Below are positions 6,229-14,479 of a stretch of DNA of 64,000 nucleotides, piece after piece. The DNA lies in the NCBI GenBank assembly GCA_018780035.1, contig JADMKE010000007.1, forward strand, positions 1 through 64,000, read 5' to 3'. The notes beneath the pieces were generated by a model, which saw only the letters and a list, made by a program, of their open reading frames with translations, was not told the DNA's origin and made no database searches. The position numbers and the translations under genes are program-made. The stretch's first letter is position 1. Each line of letters opens with the position of its first letter. The DNA comes from Candidatus Sericytochromatia bacterium (GTDB taxonomy: Bacteria; Cyanobacteriota; Sericytochromatia; UBA7694).

Positions 6229-6315
6229 ACAGGGCAGACAAAAAAGAAGTGCAAACAATCCCAAAACATGAAATACTAAAAAGCATCAGCTCTGCGAACA
6301 CCGAGGAGACAGGCC

Positions 6316-6912
6316 ATGTTAACTGCCGAACTCAAATTGACCGACTCGCTTTTTGACGAAGTTGAAGCCAAATTGGAGGGCCTGGTCACGGCCTACCGCA
6401 CCACCGAATTGCCCAAAGCATCGTTGGATCCGGGGGTCTTAAAACAGCTCAACAAAGACCAGACCTTTCTCAAAAAGACCTGCGACAGCTTGCGCGCACA
6501 GTTGAGCCAATTGGATATCTCCCACCAACACGAAACCACCCGTTTGCACCTCAATTTTGATCTGTTGCTGCAGCGGTTGGCCCATTTTGACGAGGCCCTG
6601 CGCATTTCAGAGGTGATCAAAGCGCTGAATAACCGGCTCAAAGATGAAATTGCCGAGATCCGTGAGGCCAGCATCGCTCTGAGCAAGCAGATCCTGCCTT
6701 ATAACCTGCCCAAATTTGAAGCGGGGCTGGAAATGTTTATGGACCGCTGTGATCAGGTCGCCGACCAGCTCGATGCCCTGGAGAACCAAAGCCAAGATAT
6801 TACGCCGCTGATGCCTTTGTATGAGCAGTGGATGTTTCTGGTCGAACAATTTGGTGAGATTCTCGACGAGCGCACCGAGATTCTCTGCCCCAAAGAGGTT
6901 CAACCCGCATGA
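6316..6912 (+). CDS. Hypothetical coiled-coil protein
   Basis: 198 aa ORF, compatible spacing with the downstream ORF (4-bp overlap). Confidence 0.6.
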   Translation: MLTAELKLTDSLFDEVEAKLEGLVTAYRTTELPKASLDPGVLKQLNKDQTFLKKTCDSLRAQLSQLDISHQHETTRLHLNFDLLLQRLAHFDEALRISEVIKALNNRLKDEIAEIREASIALSKQILPYNLPKFEAGLEMFMDRCDQVADQLDALENQSQDITPLMPLYEQWMFLVEQFGEILDERTEILCPKEVQPA

Positions 6913-7280
6913 AAACCGTCCCCAAACCCACGCCCATTCTGTCCCTGTTGCTGGGCCTCAGCCTCTGGGGTTGCACGGCCACAGCCAGTGGCAATTGGAG
7001 CTTTTTTCAGGGTCTCAAGCTCAGCAGCGGCAGTGCCTCCAGCCGGGTTGCCAATGGCCGAATCCAGATCAACTGGGAGCGCACCTCAGAAAACCAAGTC
7101 AAAGTCACAGGCAATTTGGACTTTGATCTCGACAAGGTCTATTTGCGCCTGATGCGCAACCAGGGAATGGTCCACCAAGAGATTGTTAAACCCGACGCCG
7201 AGCGCAAATTTTCGGCGGTTTTGCCCGATCCCCAATTTGCCGATCATCTCTGTGTCGAAACAGATTGTTTTGACATATGA
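6909..7280 (+). CDS. Hypothetical lipoprotein
   Basis: N-terminal lipobox-like LLLGLSLWGC; overlaps neighbours by 4 bp on each side. Confidence 0.6.
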   Translation: MKTVPKPTPILSLLLGLSLWGCTATASGNWSFFQGLKLSSGSASSRVANGRIQINWERTSENQVKVTGNLDFDLDKVYLRLMRNQGMVHQEIVKPDAERKFSAVLPDPQFADHLCVETDCFDI

Positions 7281-8767
7281 GCAAGCCCCCCACGCCGCCG
7301 ACCATCTGTTCGCGTTGCAGCAAACGCCTGGGGCCCCAGGTTGTGCGCGCTGTGGGCAAACAGTTTCACCCGGCCTGTTTTGTCTGCGACAGCTGCAAAA
7401 AGCCGCTCGAAAAGAGCTTTGTGCCGCGGGGCGAGCGCCTCTACCACGGGGAGTGCCACGACAAACTCTTTACTCCCAAATGCAGTGAATGTGGTTTGCC
7501 GATTCAAGGCCCGTATACCAAAGACGAGCGGGGCCGCTACCACACCGACTGTTACCGCCAATTGCACAATCTCGTCTGCAGCCTCTGCCAGGGAGCGATT
7601 GAAGGCAGCTATCTCTACGATGGCTGGGGCCAAAAAGCCCACCCCGAACACGATCAGCACCCCACCGGCCAATGCCATGTCTGCGCCCGCCTGATGTCTC
7701 CAGCGGCGACCACGGGCAGCAAGGTGCTCAGTGATGGCCGCCTGCTCTGCAGCTTTTGCCACAGCGCTGAGATCCACGACTTTAAACAGATTCAGGCTGC
7801 CAAATTGGATGTGATCGCCCAAATGCAGGCCGTGGGCTTTGACTATATCCCCGACTATATCCAGGTCAAACTCGACGAAGACCAGCAATTGGTCAACCAG
7901 CGTTTGCGGGCCTCGGCCACGGGCAATATTCACGGCTATACCCGCACGGCCCAGCGCAATATTCCCGGCTATGGCCTGATTCTCGAACATGGCATTCACG
8001 TGCTCAGCGGCCTGCCCAAGGTGGCCTTTAAAGGCGTTTTGGCCCACGAACTTTTGCACGTCTGGATCAACGAGCGGCCGCTCAAACACCTCAGCCACGA
8101 ACAGGTTGAGGGCTTCTGCAATTTGGGCAGCGCCTTGATCTGCCAAAATGCCCTCAAAAACGAAGGCGATGAATTGGCCCGCGTGCTGCTGCAGCGCATG
8201 GACGAAGACCCCGACCCCGCTTATGGCCATGGCTACCGCGCCATGGCCTGGCGTCTGGAACAAATGGGCTGGCCTGCCCTGCTGCAGGCTTTGCAAAACC
8301 CCGACATTCCCCTGCCCGAGCCCGAGGCCAGTGTTACCCAGCCCCGTGCCAAACAGGCCCTTTTGCCCCCAGAGCCCGCTCCCTTTGGCTCCGCTCAGGG
8401 AGCGAATCGGGGAGCGAATCAAGAAACGAACCCCAAAACCATGAGCAGCGCCGAAAAACTGGCCGAGATCAAAGCCAAACTCGACCAACAGCGCATGCAA
8501 AACAAACCCGCAGCAGCCACACCAAGTCCATCCCCCGCGGCCCCCCGCTCCCTGAGTCCCCTGAGCCGTCTGTCGAGCGAAGGGAGCGAAGGGAGCAAAC
8601 CAGACGTAGATCCCGAAGTGGCAAGAAAAATCCGCGAGCGCTTTGCCCAAAAAGGCAGCCCCAAAGCCAATATTCAAGCCCAGAAACCAGCACAAAAACC
8701 AGGCCAGAAACCCGGTGCTGGCCCCAGCGGCAAATTGGGCAAGCTCAAAAAACCGGGCAAAAGTTGA
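7277..8767 (+). CDS. LIM-domain zinc protein with DA1-like metallopeptidase domain
   Basis: Tandem LIM-type CxxC...HxxCFxCxxC...HxxC motifs; HELLHVW zinc-peptidase motif followed by HEQVEGFCNL; proline-rich tail. Confidence 0.8.
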   Translation: MSKPPTPPTICSRCSKRLGPQVVRAVGKQFHPACFVCDSCKKPLEKSFVPRGERLYHGECHDKLFTPKCSECGLPIQGPYTKDERGRYHTDCYRQLHNLVCSLCQGAIEGSYLYDGWGQKAHPEHDQHPTGQCHVCARLMSPAATTGSKVLSDGRLLCSFCHSAEIHDFKQIQAAKLDVIAQMQAVGFDYIPDYIQVKLDEDQQLVNQRLRASATGNIHGYTRTAQRNIPGYGLILEHGIHVLSGLPKVAFKGVLAHELLHVWINERPLKHLSHEQVEGFCNLGSALICQNALKNEGDELARVLLQRMDEDPDPAYGHGYRAMAWRLEQMGWPALLQALQNPDIPLPEPEASVTQPRAKQALLPPEPAPFGSAQGANRGANQETNPKTMSSAEKLAEIKAKLDQQRMQNKPAAATPSPSPAAPRSLSPLSRLSSEGSEGSKPDVDPEVARKIRERFAQKGSPKANIQAQKPAQKPGQKPGAGPSGKLGKLKKPGKS

Positions 8768-10005
8768 AGCGCGTCGTCTTGTCCAGACCGAATCTGTTTA
8801 TGTCTCTGGTTCTGGTTCTGTTTCTGATGGCGGCTCTGAACCTCTCGCCCGCCCAGGCTCAAACTCAGGTTCCCGCCAAAATGAACTTCTGGAAAACCCA
8901 GCGCAAAGGGGCCAATTGTTTTAATCTGAGGCCCGAGATGGCCTGGTTTCAAGCGGCCAAAGCCCAGCGACTGGGCTGGGTCCGTTTGGCGTACGACAAA
9001 TGGCAAGGCCAGGAGCGCGACTTTTTGCTGGGCAATGCCGACCAGTTTCAACATCTTCAGCCCCAGGATCTGGCCCAGCTCAAACGGGTACTTGATATGG
9101 CCCAGCAGGCCGGCGTCAAAGTGGTGATTAGCCCCTTGAGCCTGCCCGGCGCCCGCTGGCGGCAAAACAACAACGACCAAGCAGATCTCAGGCTCTGGCA
9201 GAACAAAGCCTATTGGCAACAAGCGGCGCTGTTTTGGCAAGAACTGGCTTTGGCCCTCAAAGATCACCCGGCGGTGGTGGGGTATAACCTGATCAACGAA
9301 CCCACGCCCGAAATGGGCACGGGACTCCCAGAGCAAGGCCCGGCCCAGCGCTATCTCGATTGGTATGCCCGCTACCGGGGCAGCTCCCATGACTTACCCG
9401 CCTTTTACCAAACCCTGATCACAGCCATCCGGCAGGTGGATCCAGAGACACCCATTCTGCTGGATGCGGGTTGGTACGCCCAGCCCGCCGCCTTTGTCCA
9501 TTGGCAACGCCTGTCAGATCCCAACCTGCTCTACGCCTTTCACATGTACGAGCCTTATGCCTTTACCAATCTTGCCAATTTTAAAGCAGGCCAGCCCTAC
9601 CGCTATCCCGGCATGATCCCCCTGGAAAAAGAGCCCATCAACTGGAATGCAGCCGCTCTCAAACGCCATTTAAAGCCGTTTTTAGACTGGGCCCGCCTGC
9701 AAAAATTGGCTCCCCACCAAATTGTGGCTTCAGAATTTGGCTGTTACCGCCGCAACCCAGGATGTGCACAGTATTTGCAGGATCTGATCCAACTTTGGAA
9801 CCAAGAGCGCTTTCACTGGGCTTTTTATTCTTTTCGCGAAGATGAATGGGATGGCTATGATTACGAAGTGGGTACAGGCCCACTGCCTGCCAGCTATTGG
9901 GAAGCCCTGGATCGGGGAGAACATCCCTCCCCACCACGCAAACCCAATCCGCTCTTTGAGGTTCTGGCCAAGGAGTTTCGGGGCCCCTCAACGCGGCCCG
10001 ACTAA
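8764..10005 (+). CDS. Glycoside hydrolase family 5-like (cellulase-type) protein, exported
   Basis: Signal peptide; YNLINEPTPEMG acid/base motif; FHMYEPYAF; VASEFGCYRR nucleophile region. Confidence 0.85.
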   Translation: MKRVVLSRPNLFMSLVLVLFLMAALNLSPAQAQTQVPAKMNFWKTQRKGANCFNLRPEMAWFQAAKAQRLGWVRLAYDKWQGQERDFLLGNADQFQHLQPQDLAQLKRVLDMAQQAGVKVVISPLSLPGARWRQNNNDQADLRLWQNKAYWQQAALFWQELALALKDHPAVVGYNLINEPTPEMGTGLPEQGPAQRYLDWYARYRGSSHDLPAFYQTLITAIRQVDPETPILLDAGWYAQPAAFVHWQRLSDPNLLYAFHMYEPYAFTNLANFKAGQPYRYPGMIPLEKEPINWNAAALKRHLKPFLDWARLQKLAPHQIVASEFGCYRRNPGCAQYLQDLIQLWNQERFHWAFYSFREDEWDGYDYEVGTGPLPASYWEALDRGEHPSPPRKPNPLFEVLAKEFRGPSTRPD

Positions 10006-10017
10006 AAAAAACATATG

Positions 10018-10056
10018 AAAAAACCCGGCAGACAATAGGGGGGGGCGTCCGCCGGG
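10018..10056 (-). terminator. Intrinsic terminator of the large ncRNA
   Basis: Minus strand CCCGGCGGAC ... GTCTGCCGGG followed by TTTTTT. Confidence 0.9.
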
Positions 10057-10795
10057 TCAGGCCTTCAAGGATACCCTTGAGGGCACAAGCCTTGAAAACC
10101 AAACAAATTACTGCATCGCTGTCCTTCTTGAAGTCTTCGTTTCAGCCAGGCAACTTTCCTTTTCAGGTGCCTCAACCACTTTCAGCGTTTCTCCCTCACC
10201 TTGCGGCAAGAGCACTCTTAGCGGCCTGTATCTGACATCCACTATCCCACATTGCTGCGAGATCCTTCTACAAGGTTTCTGCGCCGCTACAGGGTGTTCT
10301 CCCCTGTCGGCGTGTGTGCGAACAAACCTTTCGGCTCCTTCGCACCTTGGCGCTCCTGGCCTTTTTCAGGCCTTCAACGCTTTGCACTCCGACAGAATCC
10401 TTTGCCTTTCGGCCAGTGACCCTCATGCGGTTACACCTTCAGGGTTTTGCACTTAACGGTTATCTGCCACTGTCACCAGCGCCTGCCGCTCTTGTCTTTT
10501 CTCCATTGCTGGCTGAGACTTCAGCGGTTTATGCCAACCGTTGCGTGTGTTGGGCGAACCCAACCTTGACCCTCTTGGGCGTTTATCCTTCCAGGGAATT
10601 CCCCTCTCAACCAGCGGCCACCTGCTTCCAGGTCGCTCCCGTTTTGCTGTTTCGACAACTTGACGGTTTTGTTCCGATTGAGAGTTGGCTTGCTCAAAGT
10701 GTTTTCACACCCGCTGCCGCCCCTCTGAGGCTTCTTGGCCCGGGTTCTCACCGGGTCCGTTTGCGACGCTTCTTCGATTGTTTTCCGAAGCTCGT
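10018..10795 (-). ncRNA. Large structured noncoding RNA candidate (~780 nt)
   Basis: Minus-strand promoter TTGACA-N17-TATTAT upstream, intrinsic terminator downstream, at least 11 local hairpins, no credible ORF. Confidence 0.8.
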
Positions 10796-10801
10796 ATATT
10801 C

Positions 10802-10830
10802 ATAATAAGACTTCTGGTTAAAAATGTCAA
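10802..10830 (-). promoter_or_regulatory. Near-consensus sigma70 promoter of the large ncRNA
   Basis: Minus strand TTGACA (10830-10825), 17-nt spacer, TATTAT (10807-10802). Confidence 0.85.
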
Positions 10831-11012
10831 GAGTAGGCTAAAAAGAATTTAAGAAAAACTAAAAAATCTTTAAAAGTAGGATAAAAACAGAACCGACTTG
10901 CCTTCTCAGAAGGCCATGTTAAACTGAATCACGGCTGATGGGTTGCACCAGGATCATTGCTGCTGGCCACCTGCGAAGCCAAATTATTCGATCTAAAAAG
11001 GAAATTTGATTC

Positions 11013-11390
11013 ATGTCTAAATTGATGATTCTCGGCAGCGCACTGCTGGCCCTCTCCCTGACCGCTTGTGGCCCCAACCCCGCTGGCAGTGGTACCACCA
11101 CCGGTAATGGAACAACAACAGGTAACGGCACCACCACAGGCACTGGAACGGCGACAGGGAGCAGCACAAGTGTGGCTGCAATCATTAGCACCAAAGCGAG
11201 TTATATCGCATTTTTAAACTGTGTCAAAGAAAAATACACAAAACCCGAAGACAAAGCCAGTGTTGAAGCCGCTATTACCAATCTCAACAGTGTTCCAGAT
11301 TCAACCTGGGCGATTTTCTCTGCAACTTTGAGTGCCAGTGTTCAAGCCAGTTATGGTGCTCAATTAACAGCCTGTGGCTCTGTAAAATAA
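11013..11390 (+). CDS. Hypothetical lipoprotein with GTTTGN linker
   Basis: Lipobox LSLTAC; low-complexity GSGTTTGNGTTTGNGTTTGTGTATG; C-terminal domain paralogous to the next gene. Confidence 0.7.
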   Translation: MSKLMILGSALLALSLTACGPNPAGSGTTTGNGTTTGNGTTTGTGTATGSSTSVAAIISTKASYIAFLNCVKEKYTKPEDKASVEAAITNLNSVPDSTWAIFSATLSASVQASYGAQLTACGSVK

Positions 11391-11403: not shown

Positions 11404-11452
11404 AACCCCTCACAATTTGATGATTATTATTCAGAGAGTGAGGGGTTCTTTT
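11404..11452 (+). terminator. Intrinsic terminator
   Basis: AACCCCTCAC ... GTGAGGGGTT followed by CTTTT. Confidence 0.75.
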
Positions 11453-11485
11453 GTGTTCCAGGAAATAAGACTTGGAGTCGCAGTC

Positions 11486-11980
11486 ATGTACTCACTTTTG
11501 AAGCGTTATAGATTTGGCTATTGCAGTTTATTTGTTTTCACAGCCTGTTCTTTTACTGCCGCGCCGACGCTTCCAACGGCTCAACCTTCAGCCTCCCCCT
11601 CACGGCCCCCCACATCTCTCTCTTCCAGCCAAATTGAGCCTTTGGCCTTAAGCCAAAAAGAGATTGAACTACGTACAAGCAAAGTGCTTGATACCAAAGC
11701 CAGTTATATCGCCTTCTTAAACTGTGCCAAAGACAAAAGTGAAATCAGTGCCGAAGCCAAAACTGCAATTGAGATTCAAATCATGTCCTTGAACTTAATA
11801 CCGGACAGCGTCTGGTCTGCCATTTCAGCCAATTACAGCGGCTCTCTCCAGAGCAGCTACGCAGCTACGCAGCTGCTCTGGCCTCTTGCAGCACCGCAAA
11901 ATAACCTAAAGATGCTTCCGCACCGCCTGGGCCACGGTCTCGCCCTTCCAAACATAGGGATTGAGCAAATCACCCGGTGA
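11486..11980 (+). pseudogene. Paralog of 11013 lipoprotein with a C-terminal frameshift from an 8-bp tandem duplication
   Basis: TKASYIAFLNC.K and PDS.W..IS motifs shared with the neighbour; removing one GCAGCTAC copy restores ...SSYAAALASCSTAK* (stop at 11902-11904). Confidence 0.65.
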
Positions 11981-13414: not shown

Positions 13415-14479
13415 ATGCAGCAGAGCATGGACATGTTCGAAATTCTGCTCTATTCCGAAGCGGGCGCGGGTGAGGTCTTTAGCACGCACCCGCTGGCCAT
13501 TCCAGGCCTCGAAGGCGAGCGTCCGCTGACCCTCTACTTGCCCCCAGACTACCTGCTCAACCCCGAAAAGACCTACCCCGTGGCCTATTTTTTTGATGGC
13601 CAAAACCTCTACGAAGGCCAGGACAGCGGCCCGCCGGGCTGGAATTTGCACAACATACTCGATCAGCGCTTTGCACAAGGCCTGGAAGTGCCAATTGCAG
13701 TGGGCATTCACCACGGGCTCAACCGCGACGAAGAACTCTGCCCTTGGCCTGCCGAAAAAGGCCAAACCCCACGCGGTGACGCCCTGCTGCAATGGCTGGT
13801 CGAAGACTTACATCCCCAATTGGTGGAACAATTGCAAATCGACGACCGGCCCGAAATGCGGCTGGTGGGTGGCGCCTCGTTGGGAGGGCTCTTGGCGCTT
13901 TATGCCGGTTTCAGCTATAGCGATTTCTTTGGCAAGGTCATGTCCATGTCCCCTTCGCTTTGGGTCGGCAATGGCGCCATCTACGACTATATCGCCGAGG
14001 CCGCATTTTTACACAACCTGGATTTTCTCAAATTGTATATCGACTGCGGGGCGCTCGAAGACGACGATGATCCCGAAGCCTGGAGTGAAGAATACTGGGA
14101 GGAACCCGCAGACGACGACAATGTTGACGACAATGTTGACGACAATGTTGACGACAATGTTGACGAAACCATTTCCACCCAAACCAAGTTGGCGGCCGCC
14201 ATCTCTGTTCCCAATCAGGCGGCCAGCGACGACGATGCCAACGAAGACAACGACGAAGACAATGAAGACGAAGACGAGGACGATGAAGAGTGGGACACCG
14301 ACCCGCTCGAAGATGCCGAATACCTGGTCGAAATCCTCGAAGCCAAAGGTTTTGAAGACGGCGAGCACTTTCTCTGGGTGCCCGATCCCGAAGGCGAACA
14401 CAACGAATGGCATTGGAGCAAACGCCTGCCTTTGGCTTTGGCCTGGCTTTTTGAAGACGACACCTCACTGTTAAACTAG
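13415..14479 (+). CDS. Putative esterase (alpha/beta hydrolase, enterochelin-esterase-like) with acidic repeat insert
   Basis: YPVAYFFDGQNLYEG; nucleophile elbow GGASLGG; acidic DDNV repeat insert before the C-terminal region. Confidence 0.8.
   Translation: MQQSMDMFEILLYSEAGAGEVFSTHPLAIPGLEGERPLTLYLPPDYLLNPEKTYPVAYFFDGQNLYEGQDSGPPGWNLHNILDQRFAQGLEVPIAVGIHHGLNRDEELCPWPAEKGQTPRGDALLQWLVEDLHPQLVEQLQIDDRPEMRLVGGASLGGLLALYAGFSYSDFFGKVMSMSPSLWVGNGAIYDYIAEAAFLHNLDFLKLYIDCGALEDDDDPEAWSEEYWEEPADDDNVDDNVDDNVDDNVDETISTQTKLAAAISVPNQAASDDDANEDNDEDNEDEDEDDEEWDTDPLEDAEYLVEILEAKGFEDGEHFLWVPDPEGEHNEWHWSKRLPLALAWLFEDDTSLLN
14114..14161 (+). repeat. 12-bp tandem repeat GACGACAATGTT x4 inside the esterase gene
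   Basis: Four identical consecutive 12-mers encoding (DDNV)4. Confidence 0.95.

Follow-up and report, generated by a model that had tools for sequence, protein, structure and literature searches.

A multicopy structured RNA gene in one family of Candidatus Sericytochromatia and its possible role as a trans-acting scaffold

The RNA gene, its transcription signals and its distribution

The window analyzed was a stretch of 64,000 nt (positions 1 to 64,000, forward strand, of contig JADMKE010000007.1) from a Candidatus Sericytochromatia bacterium. A large RNA gene on the minus strand was found to lie wholly in the intergenic region between a plus-strand gene of glycoside hydrolase family 5 (GH5; 8764-10005) and a small lipoprotein-like gene (plus strand, from 11013). 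The latter is one of two adjacent paralogous small lipoprotein-like genes (11013-11390 and 11417-11980), related to a gene beside the RNA copy in a second genome, G001. On the other side, the plus-strand gene at 7277-8767 encodes a bacterial protein that combines a LIM domain (PF00412) with a DA1-like peptidase segment (PF12315) and is conserved in G001. Farther away, an acidic tract of DDNV repeats was observed at approximately 14010-14230, inside an esterase-family gene (13415-14479). The RNA gene and its predicted signals were as follows.

10018-10795, minus strand: large structured noncoding RNA (homologs, consensus fold, covariation)
10831-10863, minus strand: AT-rich upstream (UP-like) segment (block common to recent copies)
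10802-10830, minus strand: promoter, with TTGACA (10830-10825), a 17-nt spacer and TATTAT (10807-10802)
10018-10056, minus strand: terminator stem CCCGGCGGAC/GUCUGCCGGG followed by UUUUUU (sequence and comparison of copies)

All strings quoted in the initial annotation were found on the minus strand at their places, including the terminator stem with its U-tract. The promoter reported there, of sigma-70 type, proved to be the single promoter-like site between 9900 and 11000 (one found against 0.4 expected), and the start that it implied, near 10795, agrees with the conserved 5′ end of the RNA, which begins at 10795. TTGAC was kept 35–37 nt upstream of this end in all 20 full-length copies of the gene (see below), and homology among recent paralogs begins sharply about 68 nt upstream of it. 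A U-rich terminator was present at the 3′ end of 19 of these copies; the remaining one, in genome G002, runs straight into a HIT-domain-like gene, and a HIT-domain gene is also located downstream of one copy in genome G004. The GC-rich stem at 10056-10018 is an extra terminator of the clade to which the window copy belongs, the U-tract of other copies following directly after the closing helix P1; it was overlooked by the terminator scanner because its loop exceeds 8 nt. As judged from these signals, positions 10795-10018 constitute an independent RNA gene that has a promoter and a terminator of its own, a predicted transcription unit.

Homolog searches, which the initial annotation had proposed, detected approximately 27 diverged copies. 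They are spread over several metagenome contigs and all five genomes that could be searched within one family of Candidatus Sericytochromatia. The gene is about 700–900 nt long across the family, with a mean pairwise identity of 63% (minimum 53%). The window genome, G000 (6.47 Mb, 64 contigs), carries about 11 copies, ten full-length and one apparently split between contig ends, plus fragments. Among the other genomes, G001 has at least five or six copies, G004 seven, G002 several at contig edges, and G003 at least one. Outside the family, 14 further class members yielded no copy, nor, with stricter filters, did the rest of 401 genomes sampled from the phylum. A pattern scan of the whole GTDB revealed true copies only in Sericytochromatia, the remaining matches failing a profile check; because this pattern matches no more than about half of the copies known, distant relatives could escape it. 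Viral contigs scanned with two patterns contained no true copy. The hosts are non-photosynthetic relatives of cyanobacteria, and the multicopy gene marks one Sericytochromatia family.

Consensus fold and tandem modules

The 784-nt minus strand was predicted to fold at -313 kcal/mol (z = -7.8 versus dinucleotide shuffles; antisense strand, z = -3.6). The RNAalifold consensus comprised approximately 190–195 pairs and rests on a sequence-based MAFFT alignment, which leaves it uncertain in some helices at the periphery (the M4 stem and the tips of H1). In the alignment of 20 sequences, 91.8% of cells were paired and 135 of 195 pairs showed double changes, a level reached in 0 of 500 shuffles. With a tree-preserving null, implemented by ourselves in the spirit of R-scape, all 14 pairs at E ≤ 0.05 and 22 of 23 at E ≤ 1 fell within the structure. 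A structure derived from 13 copies, mainly from G000 and G001, predicted the held-out copies from other genera (G002 and G004), with 85.6% of cells paired compared to 43–55% when partners were slid. The elements of the fold were as follows.

10765-10795, minus strand: closing helix P1, 5′ strand, ACGAGCUUCGG / AUCGAA / GCGUC; partner 10085-10117 (covariation, helices 1–4)
10085-10117, minus strand: closing helix P1, 3′ strand (consensus helices and covariation)
10737-10758, minus strand: hairpin P2 (covariation, helix 5)
10586-10731, minus strand: module M1, consisting of an outer helix with the loop motif, hairpin H1, a stem, an inner hairpin and hairpin H2 (covariance-model matches)
10435-10579, minus strand: module M2, source of model R1 (covariance-model matches)
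10284-10430, minus strand: module M3, source of model R2 (covariance-model matches)
10123-10275, minus strand: fourth arm M4, of equal helix topology with the loop motif inverted (sequence homology to M1–M3 weakly supported)

In the consensus model, the 5′ end of the RNA is paired with the 3′ end in P1 (10795-10785/10095-10085), where compensatory changes are present; this long-range helix is predicted to enclose a multi-way junction presenting a small hairpin and four large arms. Most hairpins of the initial annotation, those at 10739-10755, 10646-10659, 10620-10633, 10549-10564, 10404-10413 and 10358-10372, were upheld by comparison of homologs, and the one at 10699-10710 falls in a variable hairpin tip. 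Others do not correspond to conserved pairing. The strands assigned to the hairpins at 10525-10540 and 10512-10525 and to the 11-bp stem at 10282-10312 pair elsewhere (10541-10535/10462-10456, 10527-10523/10490-10486 and 10397-10385/10314-10302), and the CUUCG/CGAAG hairpin at 10772-10790 competes with the end-joining helix. Because the module strands are repetitive, pairing of the 3′ strand of one module with the 5′ strand of the next was conceivable; compensatory changes favored pairing within modules. A search for pseudoknots gave no clear additional covarying helix.

Two called ORFs, one of 163 aa on the plus strand and one of 76 aa on the minus strand, lie across the RNA and could point to a decayed protein gene, or the hairpins to chance pairing in a purine-rich intergenic region. 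The folding z-score, the homologs and the covariation refute such an artefact. Furthermore, the antisense 163-aa frame was only 52% identical in protein to that of the closest relative, compared to 75% in DNA, and the frame shifts between them. Long antisense frames are unsurprising, as stop codons are scarce opposite a purine-rich RNA. These ORFs, already regarded as artefacts in the initial annotation, showed no protein-like conservation, and an artefactual or coding origin of the signal can practically be dismissed.

Covariance models revealed that the arms are repeated. When a model of M2 was run over the loci, M1 and M3 were matched full-length, consecutively and on the same strand in nearly every copy (E mostly 1e-10 to 1e-3), with almost no match outside the RNA; a model of M3 matched M1 (about 1e-13 to 1e-7) and M2 (1e-12 to 1e-3). 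These E-values are rough because model calibration was short. Covariation persisted when the modules were pooled. At the level of sequence and covariance models, M1 to M3 are demonstrably homologous tandem duplicates of one five-helix module of about 150 nt. A tree of modules separated M1, M2 and M3, with M1 and M2 each monophyletic (support 0.98–0.99; 0.99 for M1 and for M2) and M3 at a support of only 0.12, and this separation makes it very likely that the duplications predate the divergence of the RNA copies. The helix order of M4 is as in M1–M3 (outer helix, hairpin, stem, inner hairpin, hairpin) and its scores were marginal (E 0.01–0.08); M4 is likely homologous to the other three.

The outer and inner helices offer eight equivalent positions for a 3 × 3 internal loop, 5′-CARGA-3′/5′-UGRAG-3′, flanked by C-G and A-U pairs. 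Seven of these positions are occupied, and in M4 the loop is flipped. With seven occurrences per molecule, a strong promoter and a high copy number, such a motif could bind and sequester a regulatory RNA-binding protein, in the way that CsrB acts on CsrA and 6S RNA on RNA polymerase, and CsrA is encoded in all five RNA-bearing genomes. However, CsrA is also encoded in relatives without the RNA (18 of 19 genomes of the class), and GGA, the CsrA motif, was not enriched as in a CsrB-type RNA (observed/expected 1.01). In addition, constraint extends beyond the motif to the whole architecture, and no partner was identified. A role as protein sponge is considered unlikely.

Genomic positions, dispersal and gene neighbors

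Some copies occupy stable positions. The window copy and its G001 counterpart lie at an equivalent place with identical neighbors and share 75% identity, the copy on contig C56 of G000 matches the position of that on C70 of G001, and copies in G002 and G004 have flanking genes in common across genera. The genomic location of some copies is thus stable between species and genera. Others are of recent origin: the G000 copies C53a, C53b, C31 and C29 share a single block with sharp boundaries that starts at about -68 and extends to the terminator (87–98% identity), with unrelated flanks, which fits either dispersal of a unit or gene conversion among paralogs. Contigs C31 and C29 (L035 and L036) end inside RNA copies with compatible orientations, which suggests that assembly broke up an array in which several copies and fragments lie on the same strand.

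The number of copies in one genome and the recent block with unrelated flanks are also what would be expected of a small non-autonomous selfish element spreading in the chromosome, the structure serving its own propagation. Sequences of this kind form a category of mobile or repeat candidates, marked by multiple copies (PMC11109978), and the likeness extends to a varied orientation to neighboring genes. Truncated copies (3′ fragments), degenerate fragments, copies at contig ends and the dispersal itself are in line with it, nucleases and restriction-like genes are located close to some copies, and the second RNA copy of G001 (L039:8480-9265), just upstream of a gene shared with the window (at 6316), has no counterpart at window positions 6230-6310. 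The RNA encodes no protein, and neither by eye nor among neighbors was a linked transposase, terminal inverted repeat or target duplication seen. In contrast to such candidates, its own promoter, terminator and fold of about 750 nt, under selection, have been retained at only 53–75% identity, and some orthologous positions are stable; gene conversion among paralogs would likewise yield identical genes with different flanks. Mobility as the reason for the existence of the RNA is rated rather unlikely, slightly below the sponge; these two are the principal alternatives to the scaffold reading.

No family was common across loci among 30 flanking proteins scanned, except at orthologous positions; at the loci examined there was no fixed protein neighbor, and the neighbors were ordinary chromosomal genes. 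The absence of a fixed neighbor, together with that of a coding signal, argues for an RNA acting in trans.

Comparison with known large RNAs and possible function

At the gathering level, Rfam gave no match in the window or in nine paralog regions. A permissive search (E ≤ 10, three copies) yielded chance matches only, with no GOLLD, ROOL or OLE, so that no family matched any tested copy. Group I and II introns, RNase P RNA, tmRNA and HEARO likewise had no Rfam match, and ARAGORN found neither tmRNA nor tRNA in the window. No account of the RNA was found in the literature search, which mostly lay outside subscription journals. With homologs, strong covariation (including on held-out genera) and no Rfam match, the initial proposal of a new large structured noncoding RNA unrelated to known classes is supported, and a new RNA family with a conserved structure is almost certain.

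The size of the RNA, its many invariant unpaired purines and its closed multi-arm fold resemble those of large ribozymes, and an RNA enzyme of unknown chemistry might be considered. But no Rfam ribozyme, including the introns and RNase P, was matched, RNase P RNA is encoded by a separate single gene in the same genome (G000:C32), there is no long invariant catalytic core, and the gene is multicopy with no linked substrate gene. A catalytic role appears very improbable.

The likeness to GOLLD, ROOL and OLE that was pointed out initially holds for size and ornateness, and fails for context, copy number and architecture. GOLLD is often longer than 800 nt, ornate, of unknown function and without an obligatory protein partner; it occurs in phages and prophages, frequently close to tRNA islands, and assembles into a nanocage (PMC12286853). 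The Sericytochromatia RNA shares its size, ornateness and apparent lack of an obligatory protein partner, but is chromosomal and multicopy, is absent from the scanned viral contigs and is built of tandem homologous modules. ROOL (659 nt in the solved example) has its own transcription unit, is possibly abundant and has no known protein partner; it is associated with phages and tRNA islands, and its assemblies consist of identical subunits (PMC12286853, PMC5643018). The present RNA is similarly large and possibly abundant, with its own predicted transcription unit and no known protein partner, whereas it links three homologous modules covalently within a single chain. The phage or tRNA-island setting of both classes was not found here: the window has no tRNA, no scanned viral contig carried a true copy, and the neighbors are chromosomal. 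OLE, a highly structured bacterial RNA of about 600 nt, occurs in Gram-positive extremophiles and anaerobes and forms a ribonucleoprotein with Oap proteins (PMC9723947, PMC12286853); the Sericytochromatia RNA is likewise large, bacterial and highly structured, and no protein family recurred beside its copies.

The closed ends, the repeated packing-type loops and the conserved unpaired purines suggest a compact or self-associating particle made in quantity and acting in trans. The same is suggested by the absence of any linked gene and by GOLLD, ROOL and OLE, which form RNA-only assemblies (PMC12286853). In the mechanism proposed, strong promoters and many copies would keep the RNA at a high level; its recurring modules and loop motifs would pack together within the molecule and probably between molecules, yielding a rigid multivalent particle; and this particle would serve as a trans-acting scaffold, cage or hub, a role also presumed for GOLLD, ROOL and OLE, and not as an mRNA or a regulator in cis. 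Association between molecules is inferred from the repeat architecture and by analogy. A trans-acting structural or scaffold role is the likeliest of the functions considered, at somewhat less than even probability. The tandem copies of one folding module and the lack of a catalogued match make the RNA of about 700–900 nt a strong candidate for a cellular machine or scaffold of a new kind. The account as a whole, a new multicopy structured RNA family with a presumed trans-acting multivalent scaffold function, appears reasonably probable. More tentatively than the scaffold role itself, the module duplicates and seven loop motifs may represent a covalently concatenated, pseudo-symmetric RNA that assembles, alone or as an oligomer, into an abundant lineage-specific cellular particle, a new kind of RNA machine.

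Very few bacterial RNAs reach this size and degree of structure, and the folds solved were surprising. The secondary structure of the Sericytochromatia RNA is already well constrained, and the duplication of modules within it lets the evolution of giant RNAs be viewed directly. It also bears on whether a symmetry that ROOL and GOLLD obtain by oligomerization can be built within one chain instead.

A minor observation concerns a palindromic insert of about 50 nt, with a CAGTCGTTGGTGACGCAAGGAACCTTACGAATGAGGA core (-19 kcal/mol), which is present in two RNA copies at a different site in each (G000:C53:2523-2559 and G000:C31:10886-10922). A similar insert was seen in G004:C226. It also occurs within a transposase-like frame in G001, where it is in frame (51 nt by eye), and within a nuclease-like frame in G003 (L133 and L135, each at about position 1500), recalling Rickettsia palindromic elements.
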